Below are positions 9,951 to 30,888 of a stretch of 44,550 nucleotides of DNA, one piece after another. Below the pieces are notes generated by a model. The model saw only the letters and a program-made list of their open reading frames with translations, had not been told where the DNA came from and did no database searches. The stretch's first letter is position 1. Each line of letters begins with the position of its first letter. Origin of the DNA: Archaeoglobus sp. JdFR-27 (GTDB taxonomy: Archaea > Halobacteriota > Archaeoglobi > Archaeoglobales > Archaeoglobaceae); assembly GCA_002011235.1 (NCBI GenBank), contig MTMO01000011.1, forward strand, positions 1 to 44,550. The letters run 5' to 3'. The translations under genes were made by a program, and so were the position numbers.

Positions 9951-11102
9951 GTGAGAGCTCACAATATAACATCCGCAACCACATCTGCAACCGCTGCAAC
10001 CGCATCCATCACACTACCGCTGCATTATGGTAAAGCACCGTTCTGGTTACTTGATAGAATGAAAAAGCTTTCTAGAATAATTATATCCTTGATCGTCGAT
10101 GAATTCGGGGAGAGAGAGTTTTTCAGAAGGATCTCAGACCCAATTTTCTTCCAGTCCTTTTCGAATGTGTTGGGCTTTGACTGGAACTCCTCTGGCACCA
10201 CAACCGTTCTCACAGGAGTTCTAAAATCGGTTTTGAACGATAACAGAGATATTGGGATAAAAGTGGCTGGTGGAAAGGGCAAGCAAGCTTTGGGGACACT
10301 TCAGCAAATAGAGATGCTCGCAGATGGACTCGGGTTGGGAGAGGATGAAATTGAGACCCTCCAAAGCAATAGCCGGCTGGCAGCAAAAATGGATAACAAC
10401 GCTCTCCAGGATGGATACGACATCTATCACCATGCAATAATCTTCTCAGACCGTTACTGGACGGTAATACAGCAGGGAATGAATACATACGAAAGAATGG
10501 CAAGGAGGTACCATCTCAAGCCTGAAATGTTCAAACCCATCAAAATCGAAGAGAAAATTCACAGCGGGATAGTTGCTGAAAAGAGAGAGAACGAGGTATG
10601 CAATCTCGTTTCTGAAAAAAGCAAGGAAAGTAGGAAAGTAATTTTGGATATCCTAAAGAGCTCTCCATCTTCCATAAAAAGAGATCTGGAGTTCATTTCC
10701 GTCAAAAAAATCCCTAAAGGCCAGATGACGATAGATGGGAGAATTGCCGATAGCTACTCAGTTCCAAGGAGATTGAATTGGGATGCTATTGAAAAAGCCT
10801 ACGAATTACAGCCAGAGAATTTTGAGGGAGTAATAATGCTCGAAGGAATGGGAAAAGGCACTCTTAGGGCTTTGGCTTTAATAGCGGACCTCGTTTACAA
10901 CGCTGAATACGACAAACAGGATCCAGCAAAGTACTCATTCGCTTTGGGTGGGAAGGATGGCGTTCCATTTCCAGTTGACAGGAGAGCTTACGATGAAACG
11001 ATAGAATTTCTCAGCAGTGTAATCGAGCAAACCTCACTGGACAGATTTGAAAAGGAGAAACTTGTGGAGAAACTTGAGGGGGATAAGACTAAAAGAATCT
11101 AG
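9951..11102 (+). CDS. DUF763 family protein
   Basis: A 383-residue protein of unknown function that matches the DUF763 pattern: LPLHYGKAPFWLLDRMKKL, RISDPIFFQSFSNVLGFDW followed by NSSGTTT, and VAGGKGKQA. The C-terminal half contains VPRRLNWDAIEKAYELQP, LEGMGKGTLRALALIAD and FALGGKDGVPFPVDR. The start is a GTG; the next ATG lies inside the conserved domain. A TATA-like TATTTTA at about 9921-9927 is about 27 nt upstream, consistent with a leaderless mRNA. The first 20 residues are Thr/Ser/Ala-rich and derive from an imperfect DNA repeat of CCGCAACC-like units, which is unusual for the family. Predicted to be cytoplasmic. Confidence 0.8.
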   Translation: MRAHNITSATTSATAATASITLPLHYGKAPFWLLDRMKKLSRIIISLIVDEFGEREFFRRISDPIFFQSFSNVLGFDWNSSGTTTVLTGVLKSVLNDNRDIGIKVAGGKGKQALGTLQQIEMLADGLGLGEDEIETLQSNSRLAAKMDNNALQDGYDIYHHAIIFSDRYWTVIQQGMNTYERMARRYHLKPEMFKPIKIEEKIHSGIVAEKRENEVCNLVSEKSKESRKVILDILKSSPSSIKRDLEFISVKKIPKGQMTIDGRIADSYSVPRRLNWDAIEKAYELQPENFEGVIMLEGMGKGTLRALALIADLVYNAEYDKQDPAKYSFALGGKDGVPFPVDRRAYDETIEFLSSVIEQTSLDRFEKEKLVEKLEGDKTKRI

Positions 11103-15074: not shown

Positions 15075-16508
15075 CTATTGCTCACTCCATCTACGAATAT
15101 CTCCCATCATTCTGGTATATCCCTTCAGTGGCTCCCCTATCTTTAGCCCCTTGCCACTCTCCATGTCGAGAATTCTAGTTGTTCTCTCGTGATTGCCAAA
15201 CCTATTTTTAATAACTGCAATCGTCTTAAGAAACTCTCCACCTACTTCCATATGCCTTCCAAGGATCAGATAGTCAGCAAATCTGCTCATTCCAGCTCCA
15301 GTGAAGTGAAATTCATCGACCGCCTGGGTGATCTCGTAAATCCCCACAAAAGTTATACCAAGCCCTTCGAGCTGCTTTTTGAGTAGGGAAAGCATTGACA
15401 GAAATTCAGCCGTTGAAATTGCCATCTCATCCACTGCGTTGAGGGGATCTATGGCTACGATTTCGATTTCCGGTTTAAGCTTGATATCCTCAATAACCAT
15501 GTTGTAGAATTCCCCCAAGCTTACATCTTCTACTTCCCTCACAACTAACTTTTTTGGCTTGTAGCCGAACACTTCTCTGTATTTCCTAAGGATCGCTTCC
15601 CCAGATTCATCGAAGGTGTACAGAACTCCAGTATTTCCTTTCTCATCGTTCTCCTTCAAAATCTGTAAGCATAAACTCGTTTTACCAACCCCTGTTTTCC
15701 CGGCGATATACACCTTTGATCCTTTCAGTATTCCCCCAAGCATCTTATCTAGCTCAGCATTTCCCGTAGAAATCAGCCTCTTCTCGTACTTTTTTGGTGT
15801 GAAAACAAGAATTATCGGGTAGACGATGATACCTTTAGAAGTTATAGTAAAATAGTGTTCACCAAGATGGACATCGCCCCCTCTGTATTTGAGAACTTCT
15901 ATACTCCTGAGTGCTTTTCCGTCATTCCTCTTTTTCCGCTTAAGAATGAATTCTCCGCTCGATAAGTAGCTTATTATGTCCTTCCCGACCGGATCTGTCA
16001 TCTCAGCGGAAACTACTGTTGTAGCTCCTATGGAGTTAAGAAAGTTGATTATGGAAGAGAACATCCTTCTGTAAAGAGCTTCGCTCTTTATTGCATCCTT
16101 CAAAACTCCGATTCCATCTATGAAGACTCTTTCAACGTTCTCCAGTTCTTTAAGCTTTGTTATCGATTTCACAAGCTCTGCTATCTCCGACTGGCTTTCG
16201 TAGAACAGAGGTTCCCATTCAAGAATGTCCATCTCCTTAACCTTGTCCACAAAGTGAATTCTGTTGATATCCCAGCCGAAGCTATCAGCCTGAAGCTTCA
16301 CCTCATCAAATACCTCATCAAAGGAAATATAAACCGATTTGCCTCCTGCAAGCAAGAACTGCAAGCCGAAAATTGTCTTTCCGGTTCCTGGTTCGCCCTT
16401 TATCAGGTAACTCCACCCCTTCTCAAGACCACCCTTGAGAACTTCATCGAAACCGGGAATACCTGTAGATACTTTCGTTTCTTTAGCATATTTAGCATAC
16501 ATGTCCAT
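15075..16508 (-). CDS. KaiC-like double RecA-domain ATPase
   Basis: A 477-residue protein with two KaiC/RecA-type ATPase domains. Domain 1: STGIPGFDEVLKGGLEKG, Walker A GEPGTGKT at 38-45, Walker B-like VERVFIDGIG. Domain 2: STGNAELDKMLGGILKGS, Walker A GKTGVGKT at 270-277, Walker B-like IEIVAIDPLNAVDE. The position of the KaiC catalytic Glu pair reads FDE in both domains. Archaeal KaiC-like proteins are often signalling ATPases near chemotaxis, archaellum or pilus genes. This one lies at the downstream end of a minus-strand run that contains a type IV pilus machine. Several TATA-like boxes and a direct repeat of ATGATGAAAATATAAA lie upstream (about 16565-16605). Confidence 0.88.
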   Translation of the reverse strand: MDMYAKYAKETKVSTGIPGFDEVLKGGLEKGWSYLIKGEPGTGKTIFGLQFLLAGGKSVYISFDEVFDEVKLQADSFGWDINRIHFVDKVKEMDILEWEPLFYESQSEIAELVKSITKLKELENVERVFIDGIGVLKDAIKSEALYRRMFSSIINFLNSIGATTVVSAEMTDPVGKDIISYLSSGEFILKRKKRNDGKALRSIEVLKYRGGDVHLGEHYFTITSKGIIVYPIILVFTPKKYEKRLISTGNAELDKMLGGILKGSKVYIAGKTGVGKTSLCLQILKENDEKGNTGVLYTFDESGEAILRKYREVFGYKPKKLVVREVEDVSLGEFYNMVIEDIKLKPEIEIVAIDPLNAVDEMAISTAEFLSMLSLLKKQLEGLGITFVGIYEITQAVDEFHFTGAGMSRFADYLILGRHMEVGGEFLKTIAVIKNRFGNHERTTRILDMESGKGLKIGEPLKGYTRMMGDIRRWSEQ

Positions 16509-16588
16509 GCAAATTCAGAGTCACGTAAGTCTATTAACTCTTGCTGTTCTTCTCATTTTTATATCTTTATATTTTCATCATTATATGT

Positions 16589-16755
16589 TTATATTTTCAT
16601 CATCATATTACTCAAGCTCAACAATTCCTCGTTCGTATCTAAGCTGTACATACTTTCGAAACTCATCTCAGGAATGAGCACGATCTCGGATTCGAATCTT
16701 TCGAGCTTGGATACAACATCAAAGAGAGTTGAGAAAATGAGTTTCTACCAGCCAC
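16589..16755 (-). pseudogene. Possible small gene broken by a one-base deletion
   Basis: A GTG at 16755 follows GAGGG at a workable distance. Four codons later (MAGR) the frame would need one extra A in the run at about 16742-16744 to continue into a coding-like stretch of about 50 residues (KLIFSTLFDVVSKLERFESE, then IVLIPEMSFESMYSLDTNEE) ending at TAA 16589-16591. As written, the stretch is preceded in frame by a TAG and has no usable start. It sits between a DUF1614 gene and a KaiC-like gene, on the same strand. Either it is a recently broken small gene, a sequencing error, or chance. The protein is not recognised. Confidence 0.35.
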
Positions 16756-16770
16756 TCTTTTAACCCTCTT

Positions 16771-17502
16771 TTACCCTTTCCGAAAAATATCAATGAAGCT
16801 ACCAATAATATCATCCACCTGGCTTCTGATTAGTACATCGGCAAGTATCGATACAAAACCAGCTAGAAAAATTGCATCTATGACTCCACCACCCCCGATA
16901 GATATGAAAACCTGATTGGCCCAGGGGTAACATACTGCCTTATATATGTTGAGAACATCTGCACCAATTAAGACTCCAACCGTCGCACCTACATAGGATA
17001 AAAGAGCCGGATTGACTGCAGGATTCATGAATCTGAACATGAAAGATACTCCCGCAGAGAGAAGTGGTGGTATTGCGAAAAAATAAATCACTATCCCTAC
17101 TCCTGGCTGAAAAGAGGTATAAAGATACGTGATAAAGGAGATTATTCCAATCAGAACAACGGATTCCCTAATCGGAACTCTTTTTTGCAAGAGTATCTTA
17201 GATGATACAATAACTGGAACAAAAAAGCCTATTATATTTATCCCCACGATTGAATTACCTACTTGAAATAAGGGAACGTCAAAGAGTCTTGGCGCAGTTA
17301 CAAGACCCAAAATGCCGTACTGCTTTGTGGTTATCCAATATGGTATCGTCGAGATGTAGAGGAATAATGGAAGAAGTAAAAGCAGAATAACTTCAAAAAG
17401 TGTAAAACCAGCAGAATGGCGTAGGTATAGGATGAGGAGTTCGATTGCTATTAGAATAAAGAATACGGTTAGCAATAAAATTAGGTAGGGTTCTAACGAC
17501 AT
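16771..17502 (-). CDS. DUF1614 family membrane protein
   Basis: A 243-residue integral membrane protein with about seven to eight hydrophobic segments. The C-terminal ISIGGGGVIDAIFLAGFVSI resembles the conserved glycine-rich motif of DUF1614, and the buried GIxIIGFFVP and VNPALLSYVGATVGVLIGAD segments are also typical. Function unknown. I chose the ATG at 17502 because GGGTGA lies 5 nt upstream; the frame is open 12 residues further (to 17538). It is 94 nt downstream of the kelch/pilin-like gene on the same strand, so it may be part of the pilus operon. Confidence 0.75.
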   Translation of the reverse strand: MSLEPYLILLLTVFFILIAIELLILYLRHSAGFTLFEVILLLLLPLFLYISTIPYWITTKQYGILGLVTAPRLFDVPLFQVGNSIVGINIIGFFVPVIVSSKILLQKRVPIRESVVLIGIISFITYLYTSFQPGVGIVIYFFAIPPLLSAGVSFMFRFMNPAVNPALLSYVGATVGVLIGADVLNIYKAVCYPWANQVFISIGGGGVIDAIFLAGFVSILADVLIRSQVDDIIGSFIDIFRKG

Positions 17503-17596
17503 ACAATTCACCCAGCACCCTACAGCACTTTGCGTCAAATTACTATTTCTCGTGTATGCTAATTTCCTTCACGACTTCATTTCCGACAGTGAACTC

Positions 17597-19990
17597 TTAT
17601 TCCCCAACGTAGATGAGAGAGCTACCCTCATGCACATTATTTGGTGTGTCTGCTAGCGATGTCCAGGAGTTGGATGAGATGTCGTATCTCCAGAAGTCCT
17701 TAGCATGATCTCCTCTTAATGCGTAGATGTAGTTTCCGCCATCGTATGCAAGGCTACCCTCATCCACTTTTTCTGGAGTGTCTGCTAGCGATGTCCAGGA
17801 GTTGGATGAGATGTTGTATCTCCAGAAGTCCTTAGCATGATCTCCTCTTAATGCGTAGATATAACCATTAGCATAGATTAGCGAGCCCTCATCCACTTTT
17901 TCTGGAGTGTCTGCTAGCGATGTCCAGGAGTTGGATGAGATGTTGTATCTCCAGAAGTCTTTGGAGTTGTCTCCTCTTAATGCGTAGATATAGTTTCCGC
18001 CATCGTAAGCCAGAAGTTCCTCGCCCTTATCCACTTTTTCTGGAGTGTCTGCTAGCGATGTCCAGGAGTTGGATGAGATGTTGTATCTCCAGAAGTCTTT
18101 GGAGTTGTCTCCTCTTAATGCATAGATATAGCCATTAGCATACACGAGAGAGCCTCCATCTCCCACTTTCTTTGGTGTGTCTGCTAGCGATGTCCAGGAG
18201 TTGGATGAGATGTTGTATCTCCAGAAGTCTTTGGAGTTGTCTCCTCTTAATGCATAGATATAGCCATTAGCATAGACTAGGGATCCCCCAGCTTCAACCT
18301 TTTTTGGTGTGTCTGCTAGCGATGTCCAGGAGTTGGATGAGATGTTGTATCTCCAGAAGTCTTTGGAGTTGTCTCCTCTTAATGCATAAAGCGATGCTCC
18401 GAGAGTCGGGGCAGGAGTAACACACTCACCCTCCCATTGAGTGTCGGACTTTCGGATGAAGATTTTTGTTATATACTGTTGCATACTATTTCCAGTATTA
18501 ACAACCCAGAATGTAACCACAGCTCCATCATGAACCTCGTATTCAGGATGACTAACATCCCATCTCACAATATTTATGTTTGGAAGACTCCAGTTATCTG
18601 CAGTCATGCTATCAGGATACGACCAGTCAGGCTGGACATCATATTCCAACGGATCTTCTGCAAGATCGCTCAGATCTGCATGGATATCATAAGGAGCGGT
18701 CACATTTTTCACTAACGCAGTTATTGAACTTGCAGTCTTGTTGATACCCTGGATACAGATGTTTGTGATTGATGGCCAGTTTGGCTGTGAGGAATCTATG
18801 TTCGTGTAACCCGGCGGAATCGATGATATCGGCGGTAAGATCGATGTGCTGAATTTTATCATCCCAGCGGTTATGTCCCCGCTTGTCTCACCACTCGGAA
18901 ACGCGATCGATCTTATAGCACTACTGTTTATCACTATCCTATTGCCTTTAACGTAAACTTTCGTATGTGTAGTGTTCGAACCATTCAGCAGGCTTTGCCA
19001 GACCTCTGGATAGTTGGTTTCGAGTGTGATGTTGACATACTTTATATGAGAGCGTACCTCCTCATCAGAGTAGGGATAGATGCTAAGAGACTCGACATCC
19101 ATAGACGATCTGGAGGATGATGTAGCGGATACGAGAAGTATGTAGATGTTATCACCGATTATTAGGGATTGCGTATCTTTAGTTATCGCTATATTTGATG
19201 CTGCTGCTTTTAACATAATTTTTTTAATTGGGTTTAACGTATCCAATCCCGATCTAAAGTTAACAAGATCGAAGGGCAGATTTTGCTCATTTTTGATTGA
19301 ATTAACATTTTTGATTGAATTAACATTTTCACATTTTTTGTTGTTTAAACCATTTTCCAAATTTTTGCCTAAAAATTCTTTTTGAGGTAAGTAGTAACTC
19401 CCTACAGTAACAAACAAGTCATCCACATTTTCTTCTCTAAAAGCAGCCAAATATACATCATAGGAAGTAGGGATTGGTGTTGGAGTGAGTGTAGGGGTTG
19501 GTTGAGTGGATGACCCCCAGTCCGTTATTATTATCCCATGCTCGTAAACGTATTTCGGGCTGTTAATTGAGCCGTAAAGTTCATAAGTTATCCTGCTGGA
19601 TGTGAGGTGCCTCGTGTAGGTGGGCATCGATGATGTGTCTAAGGTGTAGTTGATGGTGATGTTAACATCGTCAAAAGATATCGATCCAGATACACCTTCA
19701 CCCAGATTTGAGAATAATACCCTGTCCGGATATCTAACTCCCAGATGGATATCTACAGAGACGGGCACTTTTTTTGAGGCTGCCGTACTGATGCTGACCT
19801 TGAGCTTTTCCATATCATTGTAAACAACATCTAAATGATTTATCTCAGCCTCTTTATTCCACATAGGGACAACATAAGACTGAACAATTGTATAGGCCAT
19901 TGTTAGTATCATGAATATCATTATAAATCCAATTACAGGTGTTATGCCCCTTTCACTGGGTGTTATACACCTTTCACTCCTTTTATTCAT
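17597..19990 (-). CDS. Pilin-like secreted protein with a C-terminal six-repeat kelch-type propeller
   Basis: A 797-residue protein. After a short basic leader, RGITPVIGFIMIFMILTMAY is the class III (type IV pilin-like) hydrophobic segment used for assembly or membrane anchoring. A beta-rich region follows, with a TP-rich linker near residues 150-165. Residues about 530-797 are six near-identical 43-46 residue repeats (YALRGD, FWRYNISSNSWTSLADTP), a kelch-like blade pattern in which IYALRGD stands where kelch has the GG strand. It lies 55 nt downstream of the pilus membrane protein genes, so it is a candidate minor pilin or tip adhesin. The ATG at 19990 is preferred over GTG 20014, since GAGGT lies about 7 nt upstream. 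Many N-glycosylation sequons. Confidence 0.82.
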   Translation of the reverse strand: MNKRSERCITPSERGITPVIGFIMIFMILTMAYTIVQSYVVPMWNKEAEINHLDVVYNDMEKLKVSISTAASKKVPVSVDIHLGVRYPDRVLFSNLGEGVSGSISFDDVNITINYTLDTSSMPTYTRHLTSSRITYELYGSINSPKYVYEHGIIITDWGSSTQPTPTLTPTPIPTSYDVYLAAFREENVDDLFVTVGSYYLPQKEFLGKNLENGLNNKKCENVNSIKNVNSIKNEQNLPFDLVNFRSGLDTLNPIKKIMLKAAASNIAITKDTQSLIIGDNIYILLVSATSSSRSSMDVESLSIYPYSDEEVRSHIKYVNITLETNYPEVWQSLLNGSNTTHTKVYVKGNRIVINSSAIRSIAFPSGETSGDITAGMIKFSTSILPPISSIPPGYTNIDSSQPNWPSITNICIQGINKTASSITALVKNVTAPYDIHADLSDLAEDPLEYDVQPDWSYPDSMTADNWSLPNINIVRWDVSHPEYEVHDGAVVTFWVVNTGNSMQQYITKIFIRKSDTQWEGECVTPAPTLGASLYALRGDNSKDFWRYNISSNSWTSLADTPKKVEAGGSLVYANGYIYALRGDNSKDFWRYNISSNSWTSLADTPKKVGDGGSLVYANGYIYALRGDNSKDFWRYNISSNSWTSLADTPEKVDKGEELLAYDGGNYIYALRGDNSKDFWRYNISSNSWTSLADTPEKVDEGSLIYANGYIYALRGDHAKDFWRYNISSNSWTSLADTPEKVDEGSLAYDGGNYIYALRGDHAKDFWRYDISSNSWTSLADTPNNVHEGSSLIYVGE
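17630..18388 (-). repeat. Six tandem coding repeats of about 132 bp (kelch blades)
   Basis: The shared element TGCTAGCGATGTCCAGGAG starts at 17651, 17783, 17912, 18050, 18182 and 18314 on the plus strand, giving periods of 132, 129, 138, 132 and 132 bp, all multiples of 3. The cores are almost identical at DNA level, including silent positions, while the inter-blade loops vary in length and sequence. That pattern points to recent amplification or gene conversion. Confidence 0.93.
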
Positions 19991-20045
19991 AGTATCAACC
20001 TCATTCTCACGCACACTTCATGAACAAACATCATAATATAAACCA

Positions 20046-20960
20046 CTAATGTATAAATACCATATACACCAATGTTGCTACTCCAACAAATACGAGTGCA
20101 TGCTTAAATCCTGCAACCAAATAACCCTCTCCAACCTTGCCTGCTACCAGACCGTTAAAAATTCCTTGCATCACCAGCACATGGTAGAAAACCATCTTGT
20201 AGGTTTCCACCATCTCCTTGGTCACACTCACTCCAACCACACCTGGAATTCCCTCAGATTTAGCTGCAGTTTCTTCAAGCAAGGGAATGTACTCTGAAAC
20301 GAGTATCATAATAACTCCAACAAAAACGAAGAATGAAATGTAACAAATCATGACGTAGGGAAAAGCTTCAGAAGTTCTTTTCTTTTCTAGATCTTTTGTC
20401 TCTCTAGCATTCTCAGCAACCACTTCCAGTATGTTACTCACCTCTCCTCCAGCCCTCGAGGCCTCTACAATTATCGAAACTGTCCTTTTTATAAGGGGTG
20501 TTGGATATTTGTCTGCAAATCTCTTCATGGCATCCTCAAAGGATAGTCCCCACGACATCATCCTTTCTATCCATCTCACTCCCTCTGTAAGCTCACCGTA
20601 ATCTCCCTTTGCCGCGATCTCTACAGCAGCATTTATGCTCATTCCCGCTTTTCTTGATAGGGCTAGATCTGTTAACAAATCAGGTAAATGAGCTTCTACC
20701 TTTTTTATTTTCTTTTTTTCATAATAATCAAAAAGCCCAGGAGGTGCGGAAGCTATAACAAAGGATAGAAGAGCCACATTGTATATCTCTATGTTAAGAT
20801 AAACAACCGCCACATAGGCAAAGCCAAAGGCAAATAGTCCTGAAAACAGGAGTAAAAAGATTGGCCTCTCCCTGATTACCTCGAGTGGATTTCTAAGAAA
20901 CTTTACCACCAAAGGTTTTTTCCTGTACTTCTCTATAGCTATCAGCAACTCATCGCTCAT
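20046..20960 (-). CDS. Type IV pilus/T2SS membrane protein, TadC-like (T2SSF domain)
   Basis: A 304-residue T2SSF-domain protein. The cytoplasmic part contains EAHLPDLLTDLALSRKAGMS and WGLSFEDAMKRFADKYPTP, typical of TadC/GspF-like assembly platforms. Hydrophobic segments flank it: two near residues 32-75 and two to three in the C-terminal third. It overlaps the upstream partner gene by 4 nt (ATGA), so the two are translationally coupled. In archaea such paired proteins form the inner-membrane platform that the pilus ATPase drives. It is shorter than single-chain archaellum FlaJ, consistent with a split platform. Confidence 0.87.
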   Translation of the reverse strand: MSDELLIAIEKYRKKPLVVKFLRNPLEVIRERPIFLLLFSGLFAFGFAYVAVVYLNIEIYNVALLSFVIASAPPGLFDYYEKKKIKKVEAHLPDLLTDLALSRKAGMSINAAVEIAAKGDYGELTEGVRWIERMMSWGLSFEDAMKRFADKYPTPLIKRTVSIIVEASRAGGEVSNILEVVAENARETKDLEKKRTSEAFPYVMICYISFFVFVGVIMILVSEYIPLLEETAAKSEGIPGVVGVSVTKEMVETYKMVFYHVLVMQGIFNGLVAGKVGEGYLVAGFKHALVFVGVATLVYMVFIH

Positions 20961-21979
20961 TTCGACCCCTCCGGTGTAATTGCATCTACCAGAACTATGA
21001 AAAGAATTGAACCAAGAGGTATAACACCATAAACAACGAAAAAGAGGACTGTCGGACTTGCTCCTTTAAGCATCAACATGGCTGTATAAAGCACGATTAT
21101 AAAGAGGGGTGCTGCAACCAGACCGACAATATAGACCTCGGTGATCATACCCAGAGTTGTCAAAAAGTCCTCAAATTTCTTTCTGTTCTGCTGTAAATAG
21201 TCTCTAGTTTTGTTAACGAAGTAATCACCCATTTCTCCTCCTGAAAGGGTTGTCGTAACTGCCCCTTGGATAAAAGCTCTTAAACTATCAGAGGGGGTTG
21301 TTACCGTTAGGTTTCTCAAAGCGCTAAGGAAGTCATAACCAAGCAACTCGACATCTCTGACGATCTTTCTAGCCTCGAAGCTGACCTCCCCATACATGTC
21401 CTCAGCCATGGAGAGTCTCTTAAAAATCTCGTACGGAATAACACCCACAGCAGCCATTGAGGAGATGTAACCGATTGCATGGGGTAAGATGCCATCTATT
21501 TTTCTTCTCCTCTCCCAAGCCCTTAGTTTGGGGAGTTTGAGGAATATATTGTAGGTTAAAAATGGTGTAAGTACGGCTATCAAAACGATTATCAAGATTT
21601 CCCAGCGTGTCAGGGAGAAGTTCATCGTAACCGTGTTGTATGCAGCGAAAGAGTAATTCTTGATAACTTCCGCATATCCAAGGATGTTTTTCCAAAGGGT
21701 GTTAACATCGACGTTGCGTAAGTTGACTTTTCTCAGATCAGATAAACGCCCAAGAAATCCGATCCAGTCTATTTTAATGATGAGGATTATCTTAACCAAA
21801 AGAAACGCAAGAACTGAGATGATCGGGACAATGATGGATGAGAAAAGTGCCAAAGAAAGCCACTTCTCAAGTGGAATGTACATGTTGGCCCTTATTAAAT
21901 CATTTCTCAGGGACTCGTATTTGTGTCTTTTCTTCGCATAGTATTTTCCAAAGAGCCTAAATGCTCTCTCCGATACCAT
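20957..21979 (-). CDS. Type IV pilus/T2SS membrane protein, TadB-like (T2SSF domain)
   Basis: A 340-residue partner of the downstream T2SSF protein. An N-terminal amphipathic region and a hydrophobic pair (to about residue 70) precede two more membrane segments. The T2SSF cytoplasmic core has LPHAIGYISSMAAVGVIPYE, SFEARKIVRDVELLGYDFL and SGGEMGDYFVNKTRDYL. The C-terminus holds two to three membrane segments. The frame is open to 21994, but I prefer the ATG at 21979, with GGTGG close upstream. It overlaps the ATPase gene by about 23 nt, so ATPase and platform genes form one tight operon. Role: membrane platform for pilin polymerisation. Confidence 0.85.
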   Translation of the reverse strand: MVSERAFRLFGKYYAKKRHKYESLRNDLIRANMYIPLEKWLSLALFSSIIVPIISVLAFLLVKIILIIKIDWIGFLGRLSDLRKVNLRNVDVNTLWKNILGYAEVIKNYSFAAYNTVTMNFSLTRWEILIIVLIAVLTPFLTYNIFLKLPKLRAWERRRKIDGILPHAIGYISSMAAVGVIPYEIFKRLSMAEDMYGEVSFEARKIVRDVELLGYDFLSALRNLTVTTPSDSLRAFIQGAVTTTLSGGEMGDYFVNKTRDYLQQNRKKFEDFLTTLGMITEVYIVGLVAAPLFIIVLYTAMLMLKGASPTVLFFVVYGVIPLGSILFIVLVDAITPEGSK

Positions 21980-23543
21980 TTTCCACCGTCCCATTCTCTA
22001 CCATTTTCATAACCTTCTCAGGGTCCCTTGCATACTCAAAAACAATTTTTGCCATATCCTTGAATTTATCCATCTTATTTTTCTTCATCCACTCGAGTAC
22101 TCTTATCCTTCTGTCGAACTCCTCTGATAGCTCAACCTCATTCATGTTCAGCCTGTCCATTATTTCAGTAAATACCTTTGATTCTCCGCTGAATTCAAAT
22201 TTGTCTGGCCTCCAAGTGAAAAGTTCATTCGTCTTTAGAGATTCGGTCTCAAAGTCGACATCCAGCACTTCTGTAATACGTATGCATCTCCTCGCCCTCT
22301 CTAAACCTACTTTTACTGACCTCAAAATACATATGATGTCGATGTTATCCAGCAGCAGTAACGGCACTTCAATCGGTGGTTTCGTTAACCTCCTAACAAC
22401 AGCATCAACCGAATCTGCATGGAGGGTTGAAAAAGTGACATGGCCAGTGGCCATAGCTTGGAAAAGTGTGTAGGCTTCTCTCCCCCTCACTTCACCCACT
22501 ATAATGTACTCGGGCCTCTGTCTTAAAGCAGCTCTCAGCAACTCGTACATATCTATCTGCTTTCCACCCTCCTCGGTCTCCTTTGTCATAGCTGGAATCC
22601 AGTTTTCATGCAGTAAATTGATTTCTCTCGTATCCTCTATGCTAACAATCTTACTTTCAGGAGGGATGAACATCGCAACTGCGTTGAGTGTAGAAGTTTT
22701 CCCGGTTGCGGTTCCACCGGCAATTATTATGTTGTTTCCATTCTCCACAGCCATCCACATGTAAGCCATCATCTCAACTGAGAATGTTCCATAGTTTATC
22801 AGATCAATTGGAGAAAAGGGTATCGGCCTAAACCTTCGGATAGTTATCGTTGAGCCTTTGGATGTCACCTCACTCCCCAAGCTTAGCTGCAGTCTGTCAC
22901 CGCTCGGGAGAGATGCGTCGAGAAGCGGTCTTGCTAAGGAGATGTGCTTGCCAGCCCTTTGTGCAAGTTTATATATCAAGGAATCAAGTTCTTCTTCATC
23001 GAATGAGACATTTGTAGGTATTGAACCGTATCTCCTGTGGTAAACGTATACCGGTATGTGAGGTCCATCAACCGAGATGTCCTCGATCATCGGGTCTTTT
23101 AAAAAAGCGTCGAGTTTATTATACCTGATAAAATCCCTATATACATAATAAAGTATCTTCTCCAGCTGGGACTCTTCCACCTCTATAGAGAAATCTCTCA
23201 AAATCTTGTGTATCTTCTCCTTCAGGAATCCCTCAGGATTTTCTACCTCTTCAATTCTAACATCTATTGTTTCATAAAGCCTCGTTTTCAGCTCTTTTAA
23301 CAGTTCGCTCTCACCCTCTGTCAATATCGGCTCCAAAACTTCATACCTGGATGGTGAATCCAGAATCCTCACACGAACAAAAGGCTCTTCAATAGAATAG
23401 CTTTCGATCACGTTTGCTTCGATGGTTTCAATGGCTTCAATGGTTTCTAGGGTTTCTACGACTTCGTTCTCAGACAATTCTTCATCCTTTTTTTCAACTT
23501 TTTTTTCCTTCTTTTTTCCCCTCCTAAAGAGTCCAAACATCAT
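21957..23543 (-). CDS. Type II/IV secretion system ATPase of an archaeal type IV pilus
   Basis: A 528-residue hexameric secretion ATPase (TadA/GspE2/FlaI family). A basic and acidic N-terminal tail leads into the N-terminal domain (FLKDPMIEDISVDGPHIPVY). The motor has Walker A GGTATGKTST at 276-285, the Asp box SIEDTREI, Walker B YIIVGEVRG and the His box TGHVTFSTLHA. The domain order and length are those of archaeal pilus ATPases. It powers insertion of pilin subunits via the two downstream T2SSF proteins. It is followed without a gap by the TadB-like gene and lies 76 nt downstream of the receiver-like gene. No prepilin peptidase is in the window. Confidence 0.92.
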   Translation of the reverse strand: MMFGLFRRGKKKEKKVEKKDEELSENEVVETLETIEAIETIEANVIESYSIEEPFVRVRILDSPSRYEVLEPILTEGESELLKELKTRLYETIDVRIEEVENPEGFLKEKIHKILRDFSIEVEESQLEKILYYVYRDFIRYNKLDAFLKDPMIEDISVDGPHIPVYVYHRRYGSIPTNVSFDEEELDSLIYKLAQRAGKHISLARPLLDASLPSGDRLQLSLGSEVTSKGSTITIRRFRPIPFSPIDLINYGTFSVEMMAYMWMAVENGNNIIIAGGTATGKTSTLNAVAMFIPPESKIVSIEDTREINLLHENWIPAMTKETEEGGKQIDMYELLRAALRQRPEYIIVGEVRGREAYTLFQAMATGHVTFSTLHADSVDAVVRRLTKPPIEVPLLLLDNIDIICILRSVKVGLERARRCIRITEVLDVDFETESLKTNELFTWRPDKFEFSGESKVFTEIMDRLNMNEVELSEEFDRRIRVLEWMKKNKMDKFKDMAKIVFEYARDPEKVMKMVENGTVENGIGESI

Positions 23544-23619
23544 TTTTCAGCCAACCAATACAATGTTAAAAACTTCAATTACCTAACTTACCCAACTTCT
23601 CAATTACCCATCTACTCAA

Positions 23620-23988
23620 CTACTCAGCTAAAACCTCTTGTAGTTTCGCCATTAACTCTGACCTTGATATCGGGAAGGCAATAAATTGCTTTGCCCCGGC
23701 CTTTATCGCCTTTACCACAGTATCTATGTCTTTCTTTTCCGAGAGCATTACTATCTTTGCATCCGGATCTTGTTCAATTATCGTTTTTATCGCCTCTATT
23801 CCATCTATATCCTCAAGTTCCATACCGACCAACATCAGGTCTGGTTTAAATTCCAGATAGTACTTCAACGCAGCGTAACCTGACTTAACATACTTCAGCA
23901 CTTCTACATTCTCCTCCTTCAGCAGCCTTCTCACCATGGCATACATAAACACGGAGTTTGTAGCTATGATCACCCTTATTTTTTCCAT
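23620..23988 (-). CDS. CheY-like receiver domain protein lacking the phosphorylation site
   Basis: A 122-residue single receiver domain by fold pattern (RVIIATNSVFMYAMVRRLLK, KPDLMLVGMELEDIDGIEA, DAKIVMLSEKK, AIKAGAKQFIAFPIS). The key residues of a working receiver are missing: the acidic pair after strand 1 reads TN, the phospho-Asp position after DLMLV is Gly55, and the conserved Lys before Pro106 is Phe105. Ser83 is kept. It is therefore a pseudo-receiver that probably signals by protein contact. It sits between a KaiC-like gene (117 nt upstream) and the pilus ATPase (76 nt downstream) on the same strand. TATA-like stretches at about 24003-24036 suggest its own promoter. Confidence 0.87.
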   Translation of the reverse strand: MEKIRVIIATNSVFMYAMVRRLLKEENVEVLKYVKSGYAALKYYLEFKPDLMLVGMELEDIDGIEAIKTIIEQDPDAKIVMLSEKKDIDTVVKAIKAGAKQFIAFPISRSELMAKLQEVLAE

Positions 23989-24105
23989 AGCAATCTATCA
24001 TAATTGGTTATATTTATATTTAACTTATATACCCTATCACCTTGATCTCTGAATTCCACTCTTTGCATACAACACCCACATCGGAGAACCCCATGCAATC
24101 TCAGA

Positions 24106-25389
24106 TCACAGAACTTCTGTAAGTGATACCTCTGGATAATCACCATTTGCTCTAATACTCATAGCCCTTATGTTCGTCCATGGATTTACTCCATAAATGC
24201 AGGGAACACCATATATGACCTTGGTTCTCAAGTAGACAGATGCTGCAGGTTCCATTTCTTTACATATATCCTTGCCTTCTCCTGAAAACCCGAATGTAAA
24301 GCAACTTTCACATACCTCGGAGAGAACCTTGTCGAACTTTCCTCTCTCGAAAATCTCTTCCAAATAGAATATAGCCACGGGTATGGAGTCCTTTGAATCG
24401 CCAACCTTTGTCTTGAGAGCATCTATGTCATTGACGAGAATTATATAGTCCGGATTTCTGACGAAGGGCATAGCCTCCTTTATGAAGTCAGGTTGTTTGT
24501 ATTTCATAGAGATGAAAATTACCGGTCTGCCAGAGTTTGCAGAGTTTACTATCAAATTCTGCATCAGAATTTCAAACGGTAGATGATCCCCTTCAAACAG
24601 GTTAAAGCTCCCGTATCCTCCGATCAGCTCATCAAGTTGCTTTACTCCCGATGATATTCTGCTTCTCGATATGTCAGGGATTGGAGGCGGTGGAGATGGA
24701 TTGACTATCCTTGGCTTTTTATAGGGGGAGAAGGCTCTGAAAATTCCATTCAAAAGCGTGAAAAGATATGTGGACTGAGATATCGGATATCCTCTAAGCT
24801 TCTGGATGTACATTTTTCTTATGCGTCTATTCTCAACATTTTCGTTTGTGGTGGAGATCACACCATCAACCAAATAGTCGAGGGGTTGCTGCTCGAGGTA
24901 CTCAACAATGAAAATTATCTTTATATTCGTTCTTCTTGCAAAGTCACATATATTGTGTTCGAGCTTTTGTCTTTCCTTTGGATCATAAAAACCGGTATAG
25001 GATGCTACAGCATCCCAAGAATCGATAACAACGATCGGATTCGGTATATTCTCTGTTCTCATATACACAGCTTTTAAAAACTCAGGGACATCCGTATACT
25101 TGAGCGGTTTTATTCCTATCGTTTTCGCCGGTCTTTCTGAGAGAGTCGCATCCACTATATTCTCCGGAGACAACCCTTCCTGTATCCACGGTACGTGGTG
25201 GTATAGGGTATCGGGATCGACCCTTGTAGAGAGATAGATTCCACTCCCTCTCATTTTCGTCAGAAGTGTTAGGGCGAATGCCGTTTTTCCTGATCCAGGG
25301 GGTCCCTTTACGAGCAGGGTCTTTCCTTGGTCATCGCTGAAGAATCTGGTTATCTCCTCTGGAACGGATTCTTGTATCATAGTAACCAT
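24106..25389 (-). CDS. KaiC-like ATPase with a degenerate second domain
   Basis: About 427 residues. Domain 1 is intact: Walker A GPPGSGKT at about 29-36, then strand and Walker B elements ending in PIVVIDSWDAVASY. Domain 2 begins with SSGVKQLDELIGGYGSF, but the Walker A position reads FEGDHLPFEIL with no GKT, so it should not bind ATP normally. The frame is open to 25539, but that would overlap the divergent gene; I take ATG at 25389, with ATG at 25380 as an alternative. A TATA-like TTATTTATTT at about 25405-25414 suggests a leaderless mRNA. It heads the receiver/pilus operon and diverges from the DUF5371-like and pilin genes. Confidence 0.8.
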   Translation of the reverse strand: MVTMIQESVPEEITRFFSDDQGKTLLVKGPPGSGKTAFALTLLTKMRGSGIYLSTRVDPDTLYHHVPWIQEGLSPENIVDATLSERPAKTIGIKPLKYTDVPEFLKAVYMRTENIPNPIVVIDSWDAVASYTGFYDPKERQKLEHNICDFARRTNIKIIFIVEYLEQQPLDYLVDGVISTTNENVENRRIRKMYIQKLRGYPISQSTYLFTLLNGIFRAFSPYKKPRIVNPSPPPPIPDISRSRISSGVKQLDELIGGYGSFNLFEGDHLPFEILMQNLIVNSANSGRPVIFISMKYKQPDFIKEAMPFVRNPDYIILVNDIDALKTKVGDSKDSIPVAIFYLEEIFERGKFDKVLSEVCESCFTFGFSGEGKDICKEMEPAASVYLRTKVIYGVPCIYGVNPWTNIRAMSIRANGDYPEVSLTEVL

Positions 25390-25502
25390 GAGGAGAATGT
25401 GAAATAAATAACTTTTCCTCATCACCATCATCAACACGTTATGCTCACCATAAGATTTATATACTATGAGGTTTCTAAATAATGCTACAAGGTGAGGTAA
25501 GG

Positions 25503-25724
25503 ATGGAAGAGAGAAACAAGGTCGTGTTCGCTCAGGCACCCGTGCTCGAGTGGAAGCTTGAGGAACTCAAGCGGCTATCCGGAAAGAAGACGACCAAGGA
25601 TGCACTGAATGAGGCCATTGACCACTACCTCACCTGTCCTTTCGTGGGGGTGAAAAAGAGGCTGGAGACAGAAGAACCGGAAAAACCACGAAAGGATGGA
25701 TGGTGGTGGTATCCTGAAAAGTAA
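25503..25724 (+). CDS. Small DUF5371-like protein, ribbon-helix-helix-like
   Basis: A 73-residue protein. The N-terminal part has a strand-helix-helix pattern (KVVFAQAPVLEWKLEELKRL, then GKKTTKDALNEAIDHYL) resembling DUF5371 and the ribbon-helix-helix fold; the C-terminal tail is charged and ends in three Trp and a Tyr. I chose the ATG at 25503, since GGTGAGG lies 5 nt upstream; an in-frame ATG at 25482 is also open. A TATA box TTTATATA at 25456-25463 predicts transcription starting near 25485. It is the first gene of the divergent unit and is followed by the pilin gene after 23 nt, so it could be a local regulator of pilus genes. DNA binding is an inference. Confidence 0.75.
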   Translation: MEERNKVVFAQAPVLEWKLEELKRLSGKKTTKDALNEAIDHYLTCPFVGVKKRLETEEPEKPRKDGWWWYPEK

Positions 25725-25747
25725 AAAAATTAAAAAGGGGGTGAAAT

Positions 25748-26164
25748 ATGAGGAAATGGAGAAAGGATGAGAAGGCTGTCAGTCCAGTGATTGCAACAAT
25801 ACTGATGGTTGCAATAACAATAGTGCTTGCAGCCGTGATTGCAAGTTTTGTCTATGGATACACCGGCTCGTTGGAGACGACAAAGGACGTTACCGCCACT
25901 GCAAGCTTTATTGCCAAGGGTGGAACCAAAACAATTATTGTGACCTATCATGGAGGACCTGATCAGGATGATGTATCTAGCCTAACAGTGTATGCCACTA
26001 CCGCAGGTGGAACTGCAATCACTAGTGGTACATCACTTAGTACAACCGTTGGCAGTTCAGTAACATTAACAAGTAATGTAGCTAATAAAGGACAGAACCA
26101 CGTCGTTGTTAAAGCGACATTCAATGATGGTACAGAACAGGTCATATTAGACACGTGGGTCTAA
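25748..26164 (+). CDS. Archaeal type IV pilin
   Basis: A 138-residue pilin with a classic class III signal peptide: basic leader MRKWRKDEK, then the AVSPVIATILMVAITIVLAA core, with cleavage expected just before AVSP. The mature part is a short Thr-rich beta domain ending in QVILDTWV. Archaeal pilins of this type assemble into adhesive fibres through the conserved hydrophobic helix. The Shine-Dalgarno GGGGGTGA lies 4 nt before the ATG. It is transcribed away from the minus-strand pilus operon, directly after the DUF5371-like gene. This is the likely major subunit of the machine encoded at 20-23.5 kb. Confidence 0.9.
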   Translation: MRKWRKDEKAVSPVIATILMVAITIVLAAVIASFVYGYTGSLETTKDVTATASFIAKGGTKTIIVTYHGGPDQDDVSSLTVYATTAGGTAITSGTSLSTTVGSSVTLTSNVANKGQNHVVVKATFNDGTEQVILDTWV

Positions 26165-26214: not shown

Positions 26215-28086
26215 TTAAATAAATACCCATGTAATGGGTGGACCTTTCTCCATAAAAAATCTGCTTCCAGTATTCCATGCAATATACCAGTGAACATTGT
26301 TCATCGCTGGAAGAATAAACCCTGCACAAGGTGCTTTTCCGTAAATGAATCCAATGTTGAAGATCCAGAAAAATGTTGAAAATAGGGAGAATCCAATTGC
26401 GTAGGCAAATATTCTTCTCGATTTTTCACTTTTACTTTTAATCATGTAAACAAACGAGGCAAGCAAAAATAAAATTGCAATCCAAGCTAAAATCTTGAAC
26501 AACGCATACAGATTGTTAAAGTCTCTATGTCCAAAAACAATGAATCCGTAAATTATTGAGGGTGTGAGTAAAATTGAACAGCTTATAAACACTTCAAAAA
26601 TTTCTTTTGTTTTTTCAAAGACCTCATATCTATTCAAAAACGAGATGGAGAAATATAGGAGCGGAACGTATATTGGAAGGAAGTATCTTGGATCCCACTG
26701 ACCGATCCACAAAGCGGTGGGATCTGCTTGCTTAGAATATATTATGAGGTGGGAGATCAGATATGTAACAAACAGAAAATTGAGGTAATTTTCTCTTTTA
26801 ATGATCTTTGAGAGGTTCTTGTACTTTACAAACATGATAAACCTGTAAATCATGAATGCTGAAAATATTAAAATGGGTGTGGCCTCGAAGATAGTCATCA
26901 GTGTGCCATTGTCGTTATGAACAAAAAGTGCAACGAAATTCTTTGGAATTGTCAGCCATGATCCAACCTGGTGTTTGAAAACATCAAAAATTTTGGTTGA
27001 GCTTTTTGCAATTAAAACAGTCTTTTCCTGAATTTGATGTGCAACTGGAGCAGATTCGTTAACCTTTCCAACCACAATCACATCCTCAGAAGCTACCATC
27101 GGTGGAAAGAAGATATTCTCAAACAGCAAATAGTTATTGACGAAATAGGGCGTTAGAGATATAACAATAACAACAGAAATTTTTATTAAATTCAGTATTT
27201 GAGCCTGAATACTTTTATTTCTACTGACATATAGGATTTCTGTAAGAATCAGAGAGATAAAAAGTGGTATCGATGCCTCAGGTCTCACCCAAAGTGCCAA
27301 ACCAAACATCGAAAAAGCGAGATACTTCCTCTTCTGGTCTGAATTCGCAACATAACCCGTAACATAGCTGTAAAAGAGATATATACCTAAAATTAAAAAT
27401 AAGAGTGAGAGAGTATGATCCTTACCCGTTAATGCCCAGATCGAAAATGGTGTGCCAAACAAGCATACAACTGCCGCGAAAATTCCAATTTTTTCATCAT
27501 AAATTTGCCTGAAGAGTTTGTAAACAACAGCTATGATGATCGAATTGGCTGTGATATTTAAGAGATTAATTGAGAGTATCTCACCCCAGCGAGCGAAATC
27601 TAACGGTTTGAAATGGTAAATGTTTATTAAAAAGAAAATGAGAATTGGAGTTACCAGCAAAAACCTTTCTTTTTTACTTCTGAAGCTCCGATGTATCAAG
27701 AAGATGAGCAATACAAACCATAAAACGTTCAAGAGAAGTCTTACATTGACAAGGTGATCTATCGCAGACAATACAAAATAAATCGGCAGGGCAAAGAATG
27801 GTAGTGCATGAGTGTATGCACCCACAGGTTTCCCATTTATTGTGCGTATCCCATGATCCCCACCATATTTGATTACGTCAACTGTTAAAGAGCCATTTTT
27901 TAGGTTCACAAGCTGATTTGCCGATATCCATTCATCGTTTAAAAGCAATCCAACCTGACAGAAAGTTAAGAGGAGTGAGAATGCTAAAAGAAAAAATACC
28001 AAGGATTTGTCCTTAGTCTCCTTAGTCTCCTTGGTCAACACCAGTTTTATGTGTCTAATCCACGATCCAGCATACATTTTAATCAT
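26215..28086 (-). CDS. Multi-pass membrane glycosyltransferase-like protein (GT-C type)
   Basis: A protein of about 623 residues with roughly a dozen hydrophobic segments. An acidic NDEWISANQ motif in the first extracytoplasmic loop is the typical position of the GT-C catalytic acid, and a long C-terminal extracytoplasmic tail follows. WIGQWDPRYFLPIYVPLLYF resembles conserved loops in GT39/PMT-like and archaeal dolichol-linked sugar transferases. It probably transfers a sugar from a lipid carrier outside the membrane. The frame is open to 28221, but the N-terminal 45 residues lack membrane character; I take the ATG at 28086 (ATG at 28077 is an alternative). The TATA CTTATATAAAAG at about 28131-28142 lies upstream. 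Confidence 0.75.
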   Translation of the reverse strand: MIKMYAGSWIRHIKLVLTKETKETKDKSLVFFLLAFSLLLTFCQVGLLLNDEWISANQLVNLKNGSLTVDVIKYGGDHGIRTINGKPVGAYTHALPFFALPIYFVLSAIDHLVNVRLLLNVLWFVLLIFLIHRSFRSKKERFLLVTPILIFFLINIYHFKPLDFARWGEILSINLLNITANSIIIAVVYKLFRQIYDEKIGIFAAVVCLFGTPFSIWALTGKDHTLSLLFLILGIYLFYSYVTGYVANSDQKRKYLAFSMFGLALWVRPEASIPLFISLILTEILYVSRNKSIQAQILNLIKISVVIVISLTPYFVNNYLLFENIFFPPMVASEDVIVVGKVNESAPVAHQIQEKTVLIAKSSTKIFDVFKHQVGSWLTIPKNFVALFVHNDNGTLMTIFEATPILIFSAFMIYRFIMFVKYKNLSKIIKRENYLNFLFVTYLISHLIIYSKQADPTALWIGQWDPRYFLPIYVPLLYFSISFLNRYEVFEKTKEIFEVFISCSILLTPSIIYGFIVFGHRDFNNLYALFKILAWIAILFLLASFVYMIKSKSEKSRRIFAYAIGFSLFSTFFWIFNIGFIYGKAPCAGFILPAMNNVHWYIAWNTGSRFFMEKGPPITWVFI

Positions 28087-28221
28087 TTTTACTCTTAAAT
28101 TTTTATCTAAGTTCACAATTTTTGTGATTTTGCTTTTATATAAGTTTTTCTGAAAATATTCCAGATTTGCGTATTTAGTAGCTAATTTAGGACTCCAGGA
28201 AATTGTAGAATGTCTTACCAA

Positions 28222-28536: not shown

Positions 28537-30888
28537 TTAACCTCTCTTCCTCTTAAGTGCAATGGCTGCCAATATTGCAATCACTACTACTGCAACTAGC
28601 ACGAAGATTGCTCCTGGGAATGGCCATAGTACTGGGGCTGGAGTGGGTGTTAGAGTTGGAGTTGGTGTAGGACTCACAGTCGGTGTTGGGGTTGGTGTAA
28701 CAGCTGGTGGTATCGGAGTAGGTGTTAAGGTAGGTGTAGGTGTAACTGTTGGAGGTTGCTTTACTTTCACTCCAATCGCAAACAAACTGAAGTTATATGT
28801 GTGTGCTTTGTAGTAGGCAAAGTTGGAATCGCTCTCTAAATACTGTGTCTCAAGCTCCTCCCATACCTTTGATTCGTTGTTCCATCTAAACATCGATATA
28901 TCGCCGAAACTATATCCTCTACTTTCGATCCAATTTTTCTCCACCCTGAACTTGATATAAGCTTCCTGCGGATAGACTTTCTCTCTCGTTCCAAATTTAA
29001 CTATAACAATTTCGTTGAGCTGATAGAGATCGACTGGGGGTGTTAGAACGCCCTCCGGTAGTTTTATGGCTTTCGAGAATCTCACATCTGCATAGACACT
29101 CTCGCTGAATTTTAAGCTGAATGATACCAGGTTTGTTAGTCTCGTGTAGTTTACCGGGATGGAAAGATCATACCACTCTGGCTTTGGCAGATATTTTGAG
29201 ATTGCAAAGGCATAATAAAATGGAGCCGTGAAAAGAGGCGGTCCACCTCCTCCACCACCAACAGGTATAGGAGTGAGTGTTGGAGTTGGTGTTGGAGTTG
29301 GTGTGGGAGCGGGAACAGAGACGCCCACGAAAGTGCTCAATCTATTTGTTATGATATAGAGATACCACAAACCTAGCTCTGCGTCGTATTTTCTACCATT
29401 CTCGTTGACGTGCGCTGGCGCGTAGGTTGTTGTTTGAGGTTCCCAGATTTTAGTTGTCTCATTAAATCGGGATATGTAGTCTGTGTCGTTCCCCTCAACA
29501 CCTTGTGGATAGTAAACCCTTATCTCCACCCATGTTATGTTCTCAGGAGATATATCTGTACTTACATAAATGTAATCGCTGATAGGTGTACCTTCCCAGC
29601 CTGAAATTGCTGTAAACGCTACACCATCCGGATTTAACCCCGTTTTTGCCACATTTATCGTTCCAGATTGCTTTGCAGTTATGTTGATGTATGAATTCAC
29701 TTTTGTAACATTGCTCTTTCCGGTTTCTACCGGTACATTCGGAACCACCTGAACATCTGAAACTTTTGCCTTCACCAGATCTTTTACAAGTATGGGCTCG
29801 TAAACCTCTTTGAACTCAATACCCTCTATTATCACCTTCCCCTCTGTTATCTTCGGTAACCCAGTTTCTGGATCTTCTAATACTTTTGCATTTTCAATAA
29901 CAACATTCTCAAGAGTGATGTTACCTATAATAACGGAGTTTTTGGCTACCACATTAACAACCGTTGCATCCTCTATAGTACTTCCCGTCACGTTTGATGT
30001 ACCCATAACTTTTGCCTTACCTTTTACAACGGAATTCACTACAACAGCATTGTCTTTAATCTGAGCGTAGTCCTTAACAACGGAATCCACAACCATTGCA
30101 TTATTTGCAACCAATGCATTATCAGTTACATTTGCTGTTCCTCCCACTATCGCATTGTCCATCACGACCGCATTACCAGTGACTACAGCATTATCTTTAA
30201 CCGTGGCATTTCCTGAGACGGTTGCATTACCCAGAACGGTTGCGTTACCTAGTATTTTGGCCGAAATTTTGATTACCTTTGATGTTGAATCTTTACCTCC
30301 AAGGTTATCTGTAACAATCAATATAACGGTGTAATTGCCTGGAGAAGAGTAAATATGGGTTGGATTCTGTAAGTTAGAGGTTGTACCATCACCAAATCTC
30401 CATTCCCACGCTACAATCGATCCATCCGAGTCAGGATCATAACTTTGGTCTGTAAAGGTTACGGTATCGCCAACTTTTGGAGATGATGGAGAGTAAGTAA
30501 AGTCGGCGATGGGAGGAGTATTATTGAGTGGAGAAAGATTGAGTTGCGTATATTTGCCTGATTCGAAAACGTGACTTCCAGCCCATGATCCATTAACATA
30601 AAATTGAACTACATCTCCACTTACACCCCCATCCTTTTGTGCAGTATCAGGATCGTCGGAGGGTACAAAGAAGAGAGGAGTGTGACCGTACATTCCGTTT
30701 ACAGTTGTTGTGGTTGCATAAACGACTCCACCTATTTTTGCTGTCACCACTGTGCCATCAGGAGCGGGAGTTTCACCTATGGTTACACTTCCAAAGAACT
30801 GATGAGGAGGTTGAGGAACCGCTAAGGCTACCTGAATCAGTAGAATAAGGAGCCCAACAACTATTGATGCCCTGATTTCTTGCCTCAT
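28537..30888 (-). CDS. Large surface protein: PKD domain, hexapeptide beta-helix, PGF-pre-PGF domain, C-terminal anchor
   Basis: A 783-residue secreted protein. Signal peptide at 1-24. A first beta domain is followed by a PKD domain at about 125-210 (WEWRFGDGTTSNLQNPTHIY). Residues about 212-336 are hexapeptide-like repeats (NATVLGNATVSGNATVKDNA), predicting a left-handed parallel beta-helix. A TP-rich linker with a Gly6 run leads to a PGF-pre-PGF-like domain (MFRWNNESKVWEELETQY, then the YNFSLFAIGVK end). A second long TP-rich stalk precedes a C-terminal PFPGAIFVLV helix and KRKRG, which resembles a PGF-CTERM sorting tail. Many Asn sequons. It is 44 nt downstream of another surface protein gene. 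Likely an anchored adhesin or envelope protein. Confidence 0.87.
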   Translation of the reverse strand: MRQEIRASIVVGLLILLIQVALAVPQPPHQFFGSVTIGETPAPDGTVVTAKIGGVVYATTTTVNGMYGHTPLFFVPSDDPDTAQKDGGVSGDVVQFYVNGSWAGSHVFESGKYTQLNLSPLNNTPPIADFTYSPSSPKVGDTVTFTDQSYDPDSDGSIVAWEWRFGDGTTSNLQNPTHIYSSPGNYTVILIVTDNLGGKDSTSKVIKISAKILGNATVLGNATVSGNATVKDNAVVTGNAVVMDNAIVGGTANVTDNALVANNAMVVDSVVKDYAQIKDNAVVVNSVVKGKAKVMGTSNVTGSTIEDATVVNVVAKNSVIIGNITLENVVIENAKVLEDPETGLPKITEGKVIIEGIEFKEVYEPILVKDLVKAKVSDVQVVPNVPVETGKSNVTKVNSYINITAKQSGTINVAKTGLNPDGVAFTAISGWEGTPISDYIYVSTDISPENITWVEIRVYYPQGVEGNDTDYISRFNETTKIWEPQTTTYAPAHVNENGRKYDAELGLWYLYIITNRLSTFVGVSVPAPTPTPTPTPTLTPIPVGGGGGGPPLFTAPFYYAFAISKYLPKPEWYDLSIPVNYTRLTNLVSFSLKFSESVYADVRFSKAIKLPEGVLTPPVDLYQLNEIVIVKFGTREKVYPQEAYIKFRVEKNWIESRGYSFGDISMFRWNNESKVWEELETQYLESDSNFAYYKAHTYNFSLFAIGVKVKQPPTVTPTPTLTPTPIPPAVTPTPTPTVSPTPTPTLTPTPAPVLWPFPGAIFVLVAVVVIAILAAIALKRKRG

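Follow-up and report, generated by a model that had tools for sequence, protein, structure and literature searches.

We propose that positions 15,075-26,164 of a 44,550-nucleotide stretch of DNA from the heat-loving archaeon Archaeoglobus sp. JdFR-27 (GCA_002011235.1, contig MTMO01000011.1, positions 1-44,550, on our contig C27; "the window" below is this whole stretch) hold a type IV pilus operon whose core came from another lineage of archaea, and that a KaiC-family ATPase encoded at the head of the operon works at the base of the pilus motor. We call this ATPase KaiCn, and a second KaiC-family protein at the other end of the locus KaiCc. Its gene content makes the locus a complete assembly operon for a type IV pilus with a split platform (Epd/Tad-like). 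The relationships of its genes mark it as a mosaic with at least three origins: a core of the type found in anaerobic methanotrophic archaea of group 1 (ANME-1), a native pilin, and a KaiCc from the host's own order. Our best explanation, in which as a whole we have about even confidence, is that an Archaeoglobales-type host acquired the core block from ANME-1 archaea or from close relatives of theirs. KaiCn would then be the KaiC-type counterpart of TadZ and ArlH at the motor base, a role to which we give similar weight.

The pilus operon and its origins

All ten open reading frames (ORFs) that a first-pass annotation of this DNA had named were located in the ORF list, and domain searches gave the domains, gene set and order that it described (Table 1). 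On the minus strand, from 25380 to 16771, these are KaiCn, a stand-alone receiver, a T2SSE motor ATPase, two single-T2SSF platform proteins, a pilin-like protein with a kelch propeller, and a DUF1614 protein, with spacings of -38 to +117 bp. KaiCc is next downstream on the same strand, after a 262-bp gap. A DUF5371 gene and the gene for a pilin with a Pilin_N domain are transcribed divergently from this run, as had also been claimed.

Epd-like and Tad pili have a TadA/CpaF-like motor, then two single-domain T2SSF proteins. Their secondary ATPase gene, either TadZ or FlaH, is beside the motor (PMC6668835). In the window, a TadA/VirB11-family motor is likewise contiguous with two single-T2SSF genes; its similarity scores are 136 bits with CpaF, 277 with FlaI, and 419 with 2OAP. 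However, we found neither the TadZ/FleN-MinD ATPase of Tad operons nor the FlaH of Epd operons beside the motor; a GvpD/iKaiC-type ATPase and a separate receiver occupy this slot. No secretin was seen at the locus, though no search aimed at secretins was made.

The motor is 58-65% identical to the motors of 19 genomes in one family (f7), while motors elsewhere in Archaeoglobales are at most about 50% identical to it over their length. In a tree of 82 motors, which was built without the named Epd/Tad reference motors, the locus motor is sister to 18 f7 motors (Shimodaira-Hasegawa-like approximate likelihood ratio test support of 100) and far from the native motors. On every f7 contig of sufficient length, the split T2SSF pair is present as well. 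Orthologs of KaiCn (46-57% identical) were found in f7 only, and KaiCn nests inside the f7 clade in a tree of 49 proteins. McrA from f7 scores 1141 bits against PDB entry 3SQG, the ANME-1 enzyme, and the next structure scores 691 bits. Because f7 McrA is by far the closest to 3SQG, we identify f7 as ANME-1 or its close kin.

Vertical origin from the pilus loci of Archaeoglobales is thus rejected by the trees for the motor and for KaiCn, but we retain it for the pilin, which scores 106-119 bits against pilins from the same genus and 49 bits against the pilin of an f7 locus (L147). The Pilin_N match (PF07790, 57.5 bits) makes it a class III pilin, a type with a charged or Gly/Ala signal ahead of a hydrophobic stretch. 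In three genomes of the genus (G012, G010, and G009), pilins lie near CofC and Pth2, which is the chromosomal neighborhood of the window, so the core block appears to lie where sister species have pilins of their own. The Pth2 of the window is closest to AF2095 of A. fulgidus; from this, and from the lack of an McrA match in the host genome, we place the host in Archaeoglobales.

Contamination or a mis-binned contig is ruled out because both flanks match genomes of the same genus: the left flank (3.5-13.4 kb) is collinear with contigs of that genus, with 72-89% identity at the DNA level, and parts of the right flank match them too. The flanks are therefore native to an Archaeoglobales-type genome. 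The host genome (2.36 Mb, 99.7% complete) has no match to McrA. It has two T2SSE genes: the locus motor and a gene on contig C32 that adjoins a KaiC/FlaH-like gene and presumably encodes the archaellum motor. The locus motor is the only non-archaellum pilus motor that we found in this genome.

KaiC-family ATPases and the receiver

KaiCn had been described as a KaiC-like ATPase with one dead domain, and our results agree. Its Pfam matches (GvpD_P-loop, which is the best at E = 4.2e-22, and KaiC) are confined to the first half, but the AlphaFold model (predicted local distance difference test, or pLDDT, of 87.6) has the KaiC fold across both halves in a fold search. The Walker A and Walker B motifs of domain 1 are invariant in 32 homologs; domain 2 has no P-loop. 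In a profile search, the dead half matched the ArlH/FlaH structure 4YDS (E = 1.8e-6). The two RecA/KaiC-fold domains of the KaiC family are present in KaiCn (from the model and the fold search) and in KaiCc, but only KaiCc has a P-loop in both, as a KaiC clock kinase does. KaiCc also aligns along the whole of KaiC. The KaiCn ORF can be read from 25539, where it overlaps DUF5371 by 58 bp, and homologs align from about residue 52-59 of this longer ORF, so the true start is probably the ATG at 25380 or slightly upstream.

If KaiC-type ATPases and the receiver belong with the pilus, as the first-pass annotation supposed, then they should recur beside pilus genes in other archaeal genomes. For KaiCn this is so. 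We considered 20 orthologs from as many f7 genomes, and 16 are beside a class III prepilin peptidase or a pilin. In half of the genomes, the gene for the peptidase (Arc_PepC_II) directly follows or overlaps KaiCn on the same strand (L106, L109, L110, L111, L112, L116, L120, L121, L122, and L123), and in 6 of the 20 there is a pilin within 2 kb. Since the orthologs adjoin the peptidase or a pilin this often, we consider the link between KaiCn and pili to be genuine. Of the other four, one lies 79 bp from a receiver, and the remaining three, one of which is cut by the end of the contig, have neither these genes nor a receiver nearby. In the KaiCn tree, the peptidase-linked genes are mostly in one clade, the pilin-linked genes are in other clades, and the window links KaiCn to the motor. 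The association recurs in different arrangements across clades, so it is not a single inherited arrangement. At L147, the motor, the T2SSF pair, large pilins, DUF5371, pilins, and a KaiCn ortholog are all on one 12-kb contig.

The link to the receiver is looser. The best relatives of the receiver are in f7: in four f7 genomes, no more than 2.5 kb separates them from KaiCn, and in two they are 4-5 kb from the motor. However, in a genome-wide search, only about a third of the f7 genomes had their best match at one of these places, by KaiCn or 4-5 kb from the motor. In the window's receiver, Asp57, the two acidic residues, and Lys109 are replaced by T, N, G, and F, so the usual phospho-acceptor is absent. 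This fits the claim that the receiver cannot take a phosphate, but the claim holds for this copy and not for its relatives: the six closest retain Asp57 and Lys109, and usually one acid of the pair as well. We conclude from these residues that the loss of phosphorylation is local to the window's copy and is not a property of the system.

The first-pass annotation placed KaiCc in the same run as the pilus genes. It is on the same strand, and both of its P-loops are intact, but it is probably its own transcription unit because the 262-bp gap (16509-16770) contains a TATA-like sequence and a frame-broken coding remnant. KaiCc has orthologs (41-73% identical) in about 15 other genomes, all of them from the window's order. 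Among the neighborhoods that we read, just one of these (L192) has the ortholog by a pilus operon. There, the ortholog is downstream of the operon, the two are separated by a relative of the frame-broken remnant, and the motor is of a different clade. (The remnant resembles a short ORF before the L192 ortholog; the similarity is short, so this is tentative.) With 1 of about 15 genomes, KaiCc is a weak candidate for a core part of the pilus, and the suggestion that this second KaiC is part of the system is not supported.

A proposed role for KaiCn at the motor

We propose that KaiCn binds ATP, oligomerizes, and docks on the motor base in the manner of ArlH or CpaE/TadZ. ArlH is a KaiC-family partner that is essential for the archaellum motor (PMC4858521, PMC13286277); CirA, another KaiC homolog, affects motility in Haloferax, and a study of pilin-mediated motility is cited there (PMC13286277). 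CpaE/TadZ combines an atypical receiver and a deviant ATPase in one protein, which rings the motor (PMC13170226). The receiver would be a docking or dimerization piece for KaiCn, like the atypical receiver inside TadZ. Because the host's receiver cannot take phosphate, the module would be constitutive or gated by nucleotide only. The motor and the platform pair would extrude the native pilin, and the kelch-bearing pilin would be a minor pilin or tip adhesin. KaiCn and the receiver fit the TadZ/CpaE pattern in their parts and their place, not by homology to TadZ. A more specific version is that they are a split, KaiC-based counterpart of TadZ/CpaE that evolved independently to organize a Tad-like motor in ANME-1-type archaea, and that the block then moved to Archaeoglobales, where the receiver is purely structural. 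We offer this version only tentatively.

The locus shares with the archaellum (ArlH-ArlI-ArlJ) a KaiC-family protein that is encoded with a T2SSE motor. The differences are that ArlH has one domain, with a P-loop, while KaiCn has two domains and its ArlH-like half lacks the P-loop; that the platform of the locus is split; and that the host's presumed archaellum motor is elsewhere, on C32. KaiCn also shares its best Pfam match with GvpD, the regulator of haloarchaeal gas vesicles, but this match is limited to the P-loop region, and the neighbors of KaiCn are pilus genes. We recognized no gas vesicle genes in the window or in the listed neighborhoods, where not all neighbors were domain-scanned.

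Several points weigh against a role for KaiCn at the motor. Most f7 genomes keep KaiCn outside the motor operon, beside the peptidase or pilins; in most f7 genomes with a related receiver, the closest one lies at another place; and KaiCn resembles GvpD, which regulates gene expression. Also, what we observed is gene content, ancestry, the conservation of neighborhoods, and the state of the motifs, whereas docking at the motor, gating, and adhesion are inferred. KaiCn could instead be a GvpD-like cytosolic regulator of gene expression that controls pilin synthesis, with the receiver and DUF5371 as its partners, and not be a part of the machine. In favor of this are its best Pfam match (GvpD_P-loop), its frequent location in f7 by the peptidase or pilins and not the motor, and the divergent promoter that it would share with DUF5371 and the pilin. 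But the dead half of KaiCn matches ArlH, and a second KaiC/GvpD-type protein is encoded just before the motor in L145 and L147 (98-139 bp away; 139 bp in L147), which is the slot of the MinD-type ATPase in other operons (a FleN/MinD-type ATPase directly precedes the motor in L163 and L207). We consider such a regulator possible, though somewhat doubtful.

It is unlikely that KaiCn and the receiver came to neighbor the motor by an accident of mosaic acquisition and have no role in the pilus. A locus with at least three origins might well contain such accidents, but the adjacency of KaiCn to pilus genes in 16 of 20 genomes, in several arrangements, argues against this, as does the proximity of the receiver to KaiCn in four f7 genomes. 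Even less probable is the mechanism in the first-pass annotation, KaiC-type ATPase cycling, which we read as clock-like phosphorylation of both KaiC proteins that drives pilus switching via the receiver; we would be surprised if it were correct. In its favor, KaiCc has two intact P-loops and a full-length alignment to KaiC, and both proteins are on the operon strand. In KaiC, however, the phosphorylation cycle runs in the second, ATP-binding domain; the second domain of KaiCn has no P-loop, so KaiCn is unlikely to run a clock-like cycle. Furthermore, KaiCc has its own upstream gap and its orthologs are by a pilus operon in just one other genome, and the receiver has lost the usual site of phosphorylation.

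The first-pass annotation knew of no described system with this combination of genes. This is right only in part. The association of KaiC with type IV pili in archaea has been published (Makarova et al. 2016, PMC4858521), as have fusions of KaiC and receivers in Methanosarcinaceae (PMC5847659), and split-platform pili are also known. In these two papers, KaiC is tied to pilus operons or to a receiver, but the KaiC families, fusions, and partners differ from those at our locus, and the portions consulted do not describe linkage of a GvpD-type ATPase with a receiver and a prepilin peptidase in ANME-1-type genomes. Relative to this literature, as far as it was consulted, three things seem to be new: the tie, in ANME-1-type genomes, of a GvpD-type ATPase family to the prepilin peptidase, to pilins, and to the motor; the pairing of this ATPase with a receiver; and the movement of the block to a host of the Archaeoglobales, beside a native pilin.

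KaiC-family ATPases accompany many archaeal pili, and this locus and its ANME-1-type relatives give a small set in which the reason can be tested: one ATPase, one receiver, and one motor. If KaiCn docks on the motor, then a KaiC-type protein would do the job of the MinD-type TadZ in bacterial Tad pili. The passage of an entire pilus between uncultured methane oxidizers and a lineage with cultivable members would also give a route to studying an ANME-1-type pilus in a host that can be grown.

Other features and neighboring genes

Table 1. Features of the pilus locus, with positions in the window.
Feature	Position	Strand	Evidence or remarks
KaiCn, GvpD/iKaiC-type double KaiC ATPase	24106..25380	-	domain 1 with Walker A/B, domain 2 without P-loop; ORF readable from 25539
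Stand-alone receiver domain	23620..23988	-	lacks Asp57, acidic pair, Lys109
Pilus motor ATPase, T2SSE, FlaI/GspE/CpaF-like	21957..23543	-	domain and homology searches, tree
Platform protein 1, single T2SSF, N-terminal-half type	20957..21994	-	domain search
Platform protein 2, single T2SSF, C-terminal-half type	20046..20960	-	domain search
Pilin-like surface protein, class III signal, C-terminal six-unit kelch propeller, 805 aa	17597..20014	-	domain and homology searches
DUF1614 membrane protein	16771..17538	-	domain search; homolog in L207
DUF5371 small protein, directly 5' of pilin	25482..25724	+	domain search
Major-type pilin, Pilin_N	25748..26164	+	domain search; closest are sister-genome pilins
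Putative divergent promoter region common to KaiCn and DUF5371, TATATAAA/TTTATATA box ~25 nt before DUF5371	25381..25481	.	inferred from sequence
KaiCc, double KaiC ATPase, both P-loops; host-lineage gene	15075..16508	-	domain search; probably separate unit

A scan for sigma-70 promoters did no better on the window than on shuffled sequence; the sigma-70 model is unsuited to archaea.

The pilin-like protein with a kelch propeller is as the first-pass annotation described it. It has six Kelch matches, which correspond to six nearly identical 44-amino-acid units, and these are encoded by a 132-bp tandem array at 17628-18388 (5.7 copies, 85% matches). The array looks like a recent expansion or homogenization and may be prone to changes in copy number. 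We identified the class III signal by eye and by homology to a protein from f7 (L155), which is encoded two genes after a T2SSF pair and is 50% identical to the body of the kelch protein over 141 residues. The propeller is plausibly an adhesin.

The DUF1614 protein is closest to homologs from families f8 and f18 (42-45% identity). In L207, from the distant family f8, a stretch of about 8 kb (positions 1949-10123) contains genes for MinD, the motor, a split T2SSF pair, a single-domain KaiC, a pilin, DUF5371, and DUF1614; this is an independent example of most of the gene set of our locus. DUF1614 there adjoins DUF5371 and the pilin and is 2.8 kb from the T2SSF pair. By contrast, DUF1614 has no pilus genes near it in L273, which is from an ANME-1-type genome. 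The DUF1614 model is fairly confident (pLDDT of 83.5), but it matched no fold in the PDB, and our literature search returned no paper that names DUF1614. Two aspartates are invariant in 22 homologs, D194 in a GAD motif and D221 in a GGAGxxD motif, and they lie within predicted membrane helices or at helix ends. DUF1614 is an uncharacterized membrane family and is possibly an enzyme or a transporter.

Beyond the pilin, and convergent with it, is a PMT_2-type glycosyltransferase gene (26215-28221), with a weak homolog beside pilins in the sister genome G009 (L176). It is perhaps involved in glycosylation of pilins or of the S-layer. The pilus locus is also adjoined by genes for two large secreted repeat proteins with PKD and Ig-like domains (28537-33683), which are possibly further surface or adhesion proteins. 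Genes from polysaccharide export, glycosyltransferase, and sulfatase families at 34992-43877 suggest a surface glycan cluster.

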